This document shows, one piece after another, positions 2,184-19,325 of a DNA stretch of 64,000 nucleotides. The stretch is from Maribellus maritimus (GTDB lineage: Bacteria > Bacteroidota > Bacteroidia > Bacteroidales > Prolixibacteraceae): NCBI RefSeq assembly GCF_022267315.1, contig NZ_JAIKLE010000025.1:1-64000 (forward strand), read 5' to 3'. A program made the position numbers and the translations under genes. The notes under the pieces were generated by a model. The model made no database searches. It was not told the DNA's origin and saw only the letters and a list, made by a program, of their open reading frames with translations. Each line of letters begins with the position of its first letter. Position 1 is the stretch's first letter.

Positions 2184-3854
2184 TTAATATCCGGGATTTT
2201 GTTTCATGTCGCTATTCAAATCTCTTTCGAATTGAGGAATGGGCCACAAATAATTCTTGTTAGTATCAAAAACCCTATTTTCTATTATTCGCATTTCATC
2301 TTTATTTGAAACGGCAGAATAATCAGGTGTACCATTTTCATCAATCAAAGGAGCAGAACTTAATAATCCTTTTGGTATTCTGCCATAGAGTGGGCCATTT
2401 AGTACATCTTCAGCAATTTTCCACCTACGAATATCAAATAACCTAAGTCCTTCAAAAGCCAGTTCAATTTTTCTTTCCTTTCTCAAAATTGATCTTAATT
2501 CATTCTGCGATTTTCCTCCTTCTATTATAGGCATACCAACTCTTTCCCTAATCTGATTTATCGCATCATAAACAGACTGATCAATGTCATTAGCCTCAAT
2601 TTTTGCTTCAGCATAAGTCAACAGCACCTCTGCATATCTTATTAAAATAATTCCTGTTTCGCTATGTCTAAGCGAGTTGGCATCTTCATATGTAGCATAT
2701 TTTCGCCAACAATACCCCGAAAATGATGCATAAGGATTTGTTACGTCAGTATTCGTAACTCTAGCGGGAGGTGAGACATTATAATTCCAGCAAAGCAAGC
2801 TGTCTTTGTGGGTTTCATACTGATAACCATGGAAAATTGAGCCAGGCACAATTGTACTATATTGCAATCTGGGATCTCTGTTTTCAAATGGTTTTTGCGG
2901 ATTATATAAGGGAGACTCATGAATATTTAATCCATCAGCACACAAATAAGAATCCATCATTGATTGGGTAGGAATTAATCCGCTATATCCGGAAGCCATT
3001 CGAGAGCCACACCATCTTGGAGAAGAGTGATCAATTGTACCAACTAAATATGAAAGCTTTAGTATAATTTCATTTGAATTTATCTGTCCACTTTTTTCAA
3101 ACAATTGAGTGTAATCCTCATCTAATTCATAATTTAATGCCATTGTTCGTTGTGCCGCATCTATTGCGACAGTCCACTTTTCATTGAATAATGCAACCCT
3201 GGCTTTTAATGCTAAAGCTACTCCTTTAGTAATTCGTCCTAAATAACTGTCATCAGAATATTCTGCAACCAAAATGGATGAAGACTCCTCTAGTTCACTT
3301 AATATAAATTCTACTATTTGTGACTTTTCAGTTCTCTCTATTTTACTATTTTCCAATGTTAAATTAGTTGTATAAAATGGCACATCTCCGAAAAGTTCAA
3401 CTAGTTGATAATAAAAATATGCTCTTAATACCCTAGACTCAGCAAGCAGCTGATCAATCCTACTTTGATCTGAAATTGTTTCAATATTTGCAGCTCCTTC
3501 TATTGCATAGTTACATCGCTGAATGCCAGTGTACAAATGTTCCCACATTTCAAGAATAACAGCATTTGTAGGATCGAGAGTTCCGCTACCCAATAGTTGA
3601 AAATCTCCCCAAGCCCTGCTCCAACCAATATCAGAAGCTAAATCGAGATGTTGCTCCATTGGCAATCCGTAATTAAAATCATACCAAAGGCTATTGTAGG
3701 CTCCAATTACTGCCAATTCTAATTCTGACTCAGATTGTAAAAACACTGAAACCGATGGATTATCTATTGGACTCTTTGTTAAATAATCATTACACGAAGT
3801 AAAAACGGTAATTATAAGGAATAAAAAACTTGTATTTAAATATATTTTTTTCAT
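2184..3854 (-). CDS. SusD/RagB-family outer-membrane glycan-binding lipoprotein (module 1)
   Basis: The protein has 556 residues. A lipoprotein signal ends in VFTSC at about residue 21, followed by the SusD N-terminal pattern (DYLTKSPIDNPS..., then ELAVIGAYNSLW). TPR-like helices fill the first half, and the C-terminal RagB/SusD region has the usual ILIRYAEVLLTYAEAK, RKIELAFEGLRLFDIRRW and LWPIPQFERDLN...QNPGY. It should sit on the cell surface as the lid of the SusC channel just upstream (gap 11 bases). Compared with the SusD proteins at 11,207 and 25,185 it is longer and clearly more divergent, so module 1 probably binds a different glycan. Confidence 0.97.
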   Translation of the reverse strand: MKKIYLNTSFLFLIITVFTSCNDYLTKSPIDNPSVSVFLQSESELELAVIGAYNSLWYDFNYGLPMEQHLDLASDIGWSRAWGDFQLLGSGTLDPTNAVILEMWEHLYTGIQRCNYAIEGAANIETISDQSRIDQLLAESRVLRAYFYYQLVELFGDVPFYTTNLTLENSKIERTEKSQIVEFILSELEESSSILVAEYSDDSYLGRITKGVALALKARVALFNEKWTVAIDAAQRTMALNYELDEDYTQLFEKSGQINSNEIILKLSYLVGTIDHSSPRWCGSRMASGYSGLIPTQSMMDSYLCADGLNIHESPLYNPQKPFENRDPRLQYSTIVPGSIFHGYQYETHKDSLLCWNYNVSPPARVTNTDVTNPYASFSGYCWRKYATYEDANSLRHSETGIILIRYAEVLLTYAEAKIEANDIDQSVYDAINQIRERVGMPIIEGGKSQNELRSILRKERKIELAFEGLRLFDIRRWKIAEDVLNGPLYGRIPKGLLSSAPLIDENGTPDYSAVSNKDEMRIIENRVFDTNKNYLWPIPQFERDLNSDMKQNPGY

Positions 3855-3865
3855 GTCTAAGCAGT

Positions 3866-17861: not shown

Positions 17862-18335
17862 GATTTAGTTAAATGATTAGAATTACAAAAGTATTAATAT
17901 AAATTAATCACAAAAATCAATAAAACACGATACATTCTTTTTTAAAAGTTTTTGATGCAGAATTAAACAACTGCAATTAAAGAGAAATCTTATCATAGAC
18001 AAGTTTGATAAATTGAAAAGGGAAGTATCTCATCTCAACCCCCATACAAACATCACTCAAAACAGTAATTATTTTTCACTTTTCCGATTTTAGAGAGGAA
18101 TGTTTTGGAGCATCTTCCGGGACTTTGATTCTTTTTTCTCTCAAATAATTCTTAAATTAAGCTACTTACAAACCCGAAAAACAAGGAAATAACCTTGAAT
18201 ACCGAAAAAAATAGCTAAAAAAATTGTTTTTAATCCTGAATGGCAAAAAACCGGCAAGCTGTAACGGAGCCTGCCGGCAGAGATCAATAACGCCCTTTGA
18301 AGGGCATAATATTAACATTGTAAATTTATAAAATT
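17862..18335. other. Gene-free 474 bases with two short palindromic structures
   Basis: The left part should contain the minus-strand promoter of the sigma gene, but no clear box was identified. Towards the right, just before the gene at 18336, CCGGCA (18251-18256) pairs with TGCCGG (18272-18277), and CTGCCGGCAG at 18271-18280 is itself a perfect palindrome. GCCCTT-TG-AAGGGC at 18292-18305 is a tight inverted repeat 30 bases ahead of the start codon. These could be operator or leader hairpins of the unknown gene. Nothing else was seen. Confidence 0.45.
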
Positions 18336-19078
18336 ATGGCAAACATTGATGACTACAATGCCCGGTTATCCGACATCAAGGCAATTCCTGATGAAGAAAC
18401 CCGGGAACCGGGTATTCCTGTAGATGTTGCTTTACAGGAAGCCGAAAACCTCCATCACTGGAGTTTAAACGATGCCGCCGCATTAGCGGTCGTTGGAATT
18501 ACTTCCGACATGATTAACGACCTGCCCGTACGTGCAGGCGCCTGCCGCGAGGCACAATCGATTTGGAACAAAGACTACCGTTCGCAACAGGAAGCCCAGA
18601 AAGAATGGGCAGAACAAGCACCTGAAGGCTACGCTTTCCGCGATGACCTGCTCGCTTCGCTTCGTTTTGCTTACCGGAAAGACGATGCCCTTCTAAGCCA
18701 TGTAAGTGCTATTACCGATGGCAGCGGCCATGCCGACATGATACAGGATCTGAATGACATCGCCGTTTTGGGCCGCGAAAATCCGATCCGCTTACGGCTA
18801 TTGGTTTCGATCTCACACAACTCGACTTGGCGGCCGCCCGGGCAGATGAGTTGGCTAACCTGCTGGCTGAAGCGAACGGCGACAAAGCCGATCCCAACGA
18901 ATCGAAAATTATCCGCGACAAGGCCTACACGCATATGAAAGTACTGGTGGATGAGATACGTGAAGCCGGTAAATATGTATTCCGAAAAGATAAAAACCGG
19001 TTGAAAGGTTATTCAAGCGAGTACTGGAGAAAACAAAACCGGAAAAGCAACGATGATAATAGTGAAGTGGCTGAATAA
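18336..19078 (+). pseudogene. Conserved-looking protein of unknown function, broken by a one-base frameshift
   Basis: ATG 18336 opens a frame that is coherent to about 18784 (MANIDDYNARLSDIK..., LPVRAGACREAQSIW, DGSGHADMIQDLNDIAVLGRENP) and then becomes nonsense. The -1 frame takes over at 18785 (DPLTAIGFDLTQLDLAAARADELANLL...) and ends at 19078. Restoring one base in the CCG at 18783-18785 gives a 247-residue soluble, helix-rich, acidic protein with no signal peptide and a basic tail (KDKNRLKGYSSEYWRKQNRK). By eye it is clearly richer in G+C than its neighbours and is the only plus-strand gene in the first 33 kb, both hinting at transfer. Thirty bases past its stop starts the largest CCTGT array. 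The break could be real decay or a sequencing error. I recognise no domain. Confidence 0.75.
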
Positions 19079-19108
19079 CACTGTTGTCTTTGGTATAATA
19101 TGGGGCGT

Positions 19109-19325
19109 CCTGTTAGTACACGGGGCGCCCTGTTGTTTTCTGCCCCTCCCTGTTACAAAATTATCTTCCCTGTACCGTTTTGGGCCTTCCTGTTAAACAG
19201 GACAGGAAAAAAGTGAACAGGATTCTGAAAAAAATGAAACAGGGCGTCAAAAAAACCCTACAGGCCAACTAAAAAGACAACAGGGAGCGGTAAAAGTGCT
19301 ACAGGATAACAAAAAAACAGACAGG
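19109..19325. repeat. CCTGT/ACAGG box array, copy B (head-to-head, ~20-bp period)
   Basis: Five CCTGTT/CCTGTA boxes start at 19109, 19129, 19149, 19169 and 19189, exactly 20 bp apart. They meet the mirror-image series of ACAGG boxes at 19197, 19202, 19217, 19239, 19260, 19280, 19301 and 19321, mostly 20-22 bp apart. The junction CCTGTT-A-AACAGG (19189-19201) is a perfect dyad. Between boxes the sequence is not conserved, apart from short T-runs when read in the CCTGT sense. Both halves read CCTGT outward from the 3' end of the flanking gene (18336 on the left, 19335 on the right). It is not a CRISPR array: units are too short and only 5-6 bases are conserved. The function is unknown. Confidence 0.85.

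Follow-up and report, generated by a model that had tools for sequence, protein, structure and literature searches.

What is an array of short boxes, set at a fixed distance from one another and reversed in the middle, doing behind an unannotated gene of Maribellus maritimus? In the window (the whole stretch of 64,000 nucleotides analysed here), five CCTGT boxes start at 19109, 19129, 19149, 19169 and 19189, that is, in exact 20-bp steps, and make up a left arm on the plus strand (19109-19194). The right arm, on the minus strand (19197-19325), consists of ACAGG boxes starting at 19197, 19202, 19217, 19239, 19260, 19280, 19301 and 19321, mostly 20-22 bp apart (successive steps of 5, 15, 22, 21, 20, 21 and 20 bp). 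The two series join at a perfect palindrome, TCCTGTTAAACAGGA, which a palindrome search places at 19188-19202 and which belongs to neither strand. These positions confirm the preliminary description of the locus, in which CCTGT boxes exactly 20 bp apart meet a mirror series of ACAGG boxes.

Chains of at least four identical 5-mers at 19-23 bp were found only twice in the 64 kb, one of seven ACAGG and one of five CCTGT boxes. Across the 7.33-Mb genome, a pattern of three CCTGT boxes with 14-16 bp gaps has 12 matches, all of them in the window array or in one array on contig C44; read backwards as a control, the same pattern has none. An isolated palindrome, without an array, lies at C140:6463 of this genome.

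The gene behind which the array lies

The window array is directly 3' of an unannotated plus-strand gene (18336-19078) with a single break in its reading frame, near 18800. Its first part is an open reading frame in the starting frame (18336-18938, plus strand), with a match to the protein family over 18336-18803 and the frame lost afterwards. The second part (18770-19078, plus strand) continues in another frame, after the one unmended frameshift, to the stop that ends the reading frame, and matches the family over 18770-19018 in one search and 18770-19063 in another. Translation, together with the covariation of boxes discussed below, puts the codons of a predicted DNA-reading C-terminal helix, EYWRKQNRKSND, at 19019-19054 on the plus strand (family residues 229-240). 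The C44 array sits behind a gene copy that is intact and encodes 247 aa, and two further copies, of a subfamily without the C-terminal tail, are found on contig C138.

The C138 copies (L014, G000:C138) are followed by a degenerate array that the strict detector did not pick up, with a period of about 22 bp and, by eye, a box like CCACAACG. The 5' leaders of the window gene (18263-18335) and of the C138 copy (L014:2320-2400) are alike, and both carry a GC-rich inverted repeat (GCCGGCA..TGCCGGC) just upstream of the start codon. Near-tandem diverged repeats of about 450 bp surround the gene copy of a relative (L194:9591-11620 and L194:2223-8283), and repeats related to them occur near the C44 copy. 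An empty insertion site is not readable at the window locus, because nothing in 37 genomes of the genus closely matches the neighbouring oxidoreductase (the best match outside its own genome reaches 34% identity).

Association of gene and array across relatives

The locus is one case of a wider gene-array module, in which an array of 5-7 bp boxes, one every 20-22 bp, lies behind the gene and the box sequence differs between loci. Relatives were taken as the best 80 of 112 from a search of genome contigs. Removing duplicates identical in residues 21-180 reduced 156 genes to 141, and 138 near full length were kept. The 80 of these 138 with a strict array form the sample for the tests of covariation, spacing, palindromes and hairpins; the window copy stands outside it, and protein set A2 excludes L061 (internal stop), L090, L103 and L117.

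By autocorrelation, 61 of 71 downstream flanks are periodic compared to 5 of 71 upstream (of 80 loci, the nine lacking 400 bp on one side or the other were left out), the averaged downstream signal peaks at 21, 42, 63 and 84 bp, and the other 10 downstream flanks have no periodicity. Chains of identical 5-mers at 19-23 bp with a score of at least 4 occur in 48 of 77 downstream flanks; upstream the figure is 2 of 73, and for shuffled flanks it is 1 of 770 (L070, L073 and L104, with short flanks, were dropped). The chains contain 4 to 16 boxes each. The preliminary description had named random placement as the outcome that would speak against it. Placement is not random: within 470 kb of loci, 43 of the 46 strong arrays lie at most 600 bp downstream of a member of the gene family; the three exceptions are L098 (985 bp downstream) and L074 and L115 (upstream). 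We could not find a description of such a module among open-licence PMC papers, and searches of the same papers for arrays, helical turns, specificity cassettes and Prolixibacteraceae repeats gave nothing relevant.

The homologues are all-helical proteins of about 228-264 aa, acidic as a whole (median pI 5.3). Most come from Bacteroidota, with others from metagenome-assembled genomes labelled KSB1, Neomarinimicrobiota, Aminicenantes, Acidobacteriota and Proteobacteria. The family has a match in 49 of 140 genomes of the window's own family (Prolixibacteraceae), and is patchy, since a profile search of a phylum-wide sample gives 1 of 395 genomes, the window's own. Among the 76 members scanned Pfam recognises no family, two isolated weak hits to other families (E 0.003 and 0.008) being the only exceptions, and PADLOC returns no match for the two proteins queried. 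The profile has no match among the sequences of solved structures in the PDB, and Foldseek against PDB and BFVD gives nothing at E up to 0.001. An AlphaFold2 model of the Gaoshiqia homologue (L046) is all-helical, without a strand (mean pLDDT 90.8, pTM 0.70). Its best structural alignment, to 2rld_A (Z 8.2 over 91 residues), falls below the level that the aligner treats as meaningful for helical bundles, so we draw no family membership from it; a Nop5 chain among the weak helical fold matches (Z 6.7 over 88 residues) is likewise below that level. A profile self-comparison (hhalign probability 56%, E 1e-4) only suggests that the protein may contain an internal duplication. No viral carriers were found by single-protein queries of IMG/VR or phages, PHROGs gives one weak match (phrog_18511, function unassigned there, E 1.9e-4, residues 169-211), and a tblastn search with one member against 72,556 plasmid records found no match; gene copies sit on megabase contigs.

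Period and symmetry of the array

Consecutive boxes on the same strand of the 80 arrays are separated by 20 bp in 109, 21 bp in 298 and 22 bp in 31 of 568 cases (438 altogether). A further 60 distances are of 40-43 bp, as though one box were missing, none is of 9-12 or 30-33 bp, and the odd locus L091 is the most likely source of 17 distances of 7 bp. The array period is two helical turns. This agrees with the proposal, made from the window alone, that one face of the helix is contacted at intervals of two turns, and with the expectation that the spacing would be kept in relatives; the candidate role of a cooperative, centromere-like DNA site was counted as supported along with that conserved spacing. 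One turn away from the boxes, at the centres of the spacers, 59 of 74 arrays are AT-rich (p = 5e-9), with the 7-bp tandem repeat L091 excluded both from this test and from the composition profile. Palindromes of a locus's own box occur in 30 of 80 arrays compared to 3.0 expected, and 35 of 80 arrays hold boxes in both orientations. In L048, for example, the boxes lie about 4, 25, 45, 65 and 85 bp to either side of the palindrome.

Could the array instead act as a transcribed RNA, whose boxes are bound in the transcript by the arginine/lysine-rich tail as a scaffold or sponge? Basic tails of this kind resemble RNA-binding peptides, and 9 of 48 arrays on the plus strand and 6 of 48 on the minus strand fold below z -2 (gene controls, 1/48 and 0/48), with the strongest folds at L091 (z -14.7) and L107 (z -6.3). 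As a group, however, the 48 arrays give no general folding signal (median z -0.19 and -0.15), and Rfam at gathering score has no match in nine loci (55,595 bases). The box spacing equals two turns of B-DNA, both box orientations are kept in the 35 arrays mentioned, and where an array is one-sided, as at L067, L084 and L094, inverted boxes that could serve as pairing partners are lacking. Terminator-like hairpins, moreover, stand ahead of 30 of the 80 arrays. Because of the two-sided symmetry, the hairpins before many arrays and the AT-rich spacer centres, we favour double-stranded DNA over RNA as the form in which the boxes are read; a function in the transcript is unlikely, and ranks first among the rival explanations.

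Two kinds of array differ in their layout. At the odd locus L091 (about 3700-3860), the array behind an Aquimarina gene repeats the 7-bp unit GTTGATG in tandem, with three units to every 21 bp, and its very strong single-stranded fold is on one side. In L067, L068, L082 and L084, units often alternate in an ABAB manner with a super-unit of about 41-42 bp, and GGGTCAA or GGCGTCAA recurs in one of two alternating unit types at unrelated loci.

Covariation of the C-terminal tail and the box

Boxes include GCAGGA, ACAGGA, CGAGTAA, GTGATAA, TGTAGGA, GGGAGAAC and GCCGGGA, and 51 of 80 consensus units contain GGA in one of the two orientations. A box is common to 7 of 8 pairs of proteins more than 90% identical and to 132 of 930 pairs at 45-50%. 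Which part of the protein follows the box? L009 and L017, whose boxes are unrelated, have two differences in residues 1-217 and all others from 218 on. In pairs with a core identity of 0.6-0.95, and after correction for identity, residues 229-240 are linked to box sharing with a score of 0.162; the next window scores 0.040, and the flanking windows 217-228 and 241-247 score -0.007 and 0.019. Pairs at 0.5-0.6 are less clean (0.091 for 145-156, 0.079 for 229-240). When all pairs from 0.5 up are permuted, none of 200 permutations reaches the value for 227-238 or 233-247, while 27 to 191 of 200 reach that of the ten remaining windows.

Nearest pairs made disjoint point the same way: tail identity is 0.71 where the box is shared (12 pairs) and 0.27 where it differs (17 pairs), with core identity differing too (0.83 and 0.67). 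With the core limited to 0.55-0.95, tail identity is 0.68 (n=11) in same-box pairs and 0.28 (n=10) in different-box pairs (p 0.0006). Among 62 loci, the nearest neighbour has the same box in 63% of cases when chosen by tail, 42% by core and 15% for random partners. The p values of these covariation tests are a guide only, because the loci are related and box sharing was scored coarsely. By eye, tails fall into classes: ..YWRK.HRKQ goes with GCAGGA, ..YWRKQNRKK with ACAGGA and ..FWRKKNSRK with CGAGTAA. The window protein was not used in this analysis because of its frameshift, and its tail, EYWRKQNRK, agrees with the window's ACAGG boxes. There are exceptions, namely similar tails with different boxes (L065/L090 and L112/L120), a box common to L034 and L064 at 25% tail identity, and a 228-aa subfamily without the tail, some members of which still have arrays (L037, L043, L044, L166 and L179). 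Residues 229-240, the predicted C-terminal helix, are the stretch of the protein that best tracks the box, and it is strongly suggested that the tail binds DNA.

Since tail and array adjoin, part of this covariation may be linkage. In its extreme form, the two would covary merely as DNA neighbours that are replaced jointly, and another host factor would read the boxes. A block replacement of just this kind is seen once: L195, from the window's own genome, and L194, from a relative, are 96% identical over 940 bp, starting about 230 bp upstream of the start codon, and the identity ends inside the tail codons, beyond which the arrays are unrelated. Tail and array were thus replaced as a block at least once. 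Against linkage alone, residues 241-247, which are encoded nearest the array, and 217-228 lack a link comparable to that of 229-240, and like tails go with like boxes at unrelated loci of different genomes. Copies within one genome differ in their boxes in 15 of 16 pairs (the window and C44 copies, both with CCTGT, are outside this count), which a host factor leaves unexplained. Joint replacement without recognition is thus improbable, and ranks second among the rivals to recognition of the box by the tail.

Box changes can also be seen inside arrays. The central boxes of L187, L190 and L191 differ throughout, with outermost boxes and parts of spacers alike, and L035 has five boxes of one type followed, at the far end, by boxes of its relatives' type (both by eye). 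Such wholesale box change with persisting spacers represents an unusual case of a protein and its target changing together. In 51 related pairs, 2813 of 3490 box positions are conserved versus 6342 of 11067 spacer positions, the box mask being taken from one member per pair.

Genomic surroundings

The gene-array unit seems to stand alone, because few flanks are shared, neighbours have no preferred orientation and no neighbour family dominates. Two loci rarely have flanking DNA in common (7 pairs upstream for 70 loci and 3 pairs downstream for 71), and the upstream neighbours are oriented 35 and 33 in the two directions. A survey of 122 of 124 neighbour ORFs found 143 Pfam families, the commonest in 7. 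Downstream, 36 of 65 loci have a convergent ORF next and the other 29 a co-directional one, for which reason the array is not the general element for convergent transcripts that had been suggested from the window. An autoregulated operator array was considered as well and rejected: the 300 bp upstream of the gene hold no excess of own boxes (47 matches in 78 loci, compared to 54.9 expected from foreign boxes), so that the gene does not resemble an autorepressor.

The same surroundings bear on whether the array is a terminator, an insulator or a roadblock for neighbouring genes. In the window, folding predicts a terminator-like hairpin (19100-19133, -23.3 kcal/mol, z -5.06) followed by a T-rich run, the whole (19100-19142, plus strand) overlapping array units 1-2, and terminator-like hairpins occur near the gene in 34 of 80 downstream flanks versus 4 of 80 shuffled ones. 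A terminator-like element, as proposed in the preliminary description, is therefore present at the locus, but termination is not supported as the role of the array, given that the hairpin precedes the array in 30 of the 34 hairpin loci. The unbiased orientation of the downstream neighbours also goes against a role of this type, and a plain terminator would make a cognate protein tail superfluous. We regard this explanation as quite improbable.

A proposed module

The best explanation, to which we give a probability of about 0.6, is that the tail of the protein selects a cis site on which the protein assembles into a phased nucleoprotein array. Gene and array would be the two halves of one module. 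The protein is predicted to be elongated and all-helical. Its core, roughly residues 1-217, is conserved, whereas the C-terminal helix after it (229-240) is short, basic and variable, and this helix would read the 5-7 bp box in double-stranded DNA. The array presents one box per two turns behind the gene, beyond a terminator-like hairpin in at least 30 of 80 loci, and copies of the protein may load on it side by side, along one face of the helix. We infer that binding is physical, that it takes place at the DNA level and that the protein assembles cooperatively on the array. Tail and array would change together, exchangeable as a specificity cassette, while the core stays. If they move as one cassette, coexisting copies would therefore stay orthogonal, which matches the different boxes of most same-genome pairs.

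What the nucleoprotein array might do is a more tentative matter. Organising, segregating and marking DNA are the candidate roles. Our leading guess is a cis-acting site for organising or segregating DNA, similar to a plasmid centromere without a known motor, although this role is less likely than not. The broader proposal falls a little short of an even chance: a new class of chromosomal module, in which a motor-less centromere-like array is bound by a protein that reads its own boxes through an exchangeable helix, with a near-readable residue-to-base code, tail and array forming one cassette and coexisting copies being orthogonal. Whatever the role, most loci of this unannotated family link it to a DNA target that can be seen, and its specificity can therefore be read from sequence alone. 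For a code of protein-DNA recognition, the tail-box pairs are a data set supplied by nature; at position 235, for instance, Asn or His occurs with ACAGGA or GCAGGA. If the array does organise or segregate DNA, chromosomes would carry a centromere-like site of a type that we did not come across in the searched papers.

Comparison with known systems

Short constant boxes alternating with variable stretches next to a solitary gene recall a guide-RNA array such as CRISPR or TIGR (boxes as repeats, 14-15 nt spacers as guides), a reading that can be dismissed as highly improbable given the near-identical or alternating spacers of L082, L084, L094 and L095, the Pfam and PADLOC results above, and the different build of TIGR arrays. 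According to PMC12045711, two repeats of 8-12 nt alternate in them, the spacers measure 9 nt, the guide RNAs 36 nt, and the protein has a Nop domain. TIGR-Tas resembles the module in its solitary gene by an array and in repeats that are constant within a locus and variable between loci. The module, in contrast, has one 5-7 bp box per 20-22 bp, some of its arrays alternate in spacer type, and no Nop family appears in the Pfam scan of 76 members.

The protein is related to the PQLLE family (NCBIfam NF052641). The homology is distant (P0001, E 2.7e-8; profile comparison probability 86.8%, E 4e-6), and two members score 33.8 and 12.4 bits, below the family cut-off of 80 bits. Some PQLLE members (L133 and L139) have arrays of about 21 bp close by, as in the module, but upstream of the gene, and several members carry long C-terminal extensions. 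Those of several relatives in genome G162 resemble, by eye, fibronectin type III domains. Upstream arrays are seen at PQLLE loci L126-L141 (e.g. L139:778-1072 and L133:962-1214, with 15 ATAGA and 10 CGTAG boxes). The library entry gives no function for the family, and its name occurs in no paper found among open-licence PMC articles.

Plasmid stability systems offer closer parallels. In R388, as described in PMC3098194, StbA and its repeats stabilise the plasmid with no motor proven necessary, and the stbDRs surround the promoter in two sets, each made up of five 9-bp repeats separated by 2 bp. Like this system, the module pairs one DNA-binding protein (predicted here) with direct repeats adjoining its own gene; unlike it, the boxes follow the gene at steps of 20-22 bp, with no excess of own boxes upstream.

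ParR of pSK41, according to PMC9426499, binds 20-bp repeats, and its cognate specificity underlies incompatibility; the ParMRC families of Clostridium perfringens differ in specificity by family, which keeps coexisting systems apart. The likeness to ParR-parC is a DNA-binding protein (predicted here) with an array of cognate repeats. ParMRC, however, has its repeats upstream of parM, typically a ribbon-helix-helix ParR, and a necessary actin-like motor, and it resides on plasmids. The module has its array downstream, with only the box constant, and a different, all-helical protein; the AlphaFold2 model, which has no strand, and the Pfam scan of 76 members, which recognises no family (the two weak matches aside), both go against a ribbon-helix-helix fold. 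ParM is not among the 25 commonest of the 143 Pfam families of the 122 nearest neighbours, and copies lie on megabase contigs, with no plasmid match for the one member searched against 72,556 records. Because the protein differs, the array is downstream, only the box is constant and the one plasmid query gave no match, we file the module under neither ParMRC nor StbA. By analogy, the ParR-bound centromere arrays of plasmids and StbA with its repeats are its nearest working counterparts.
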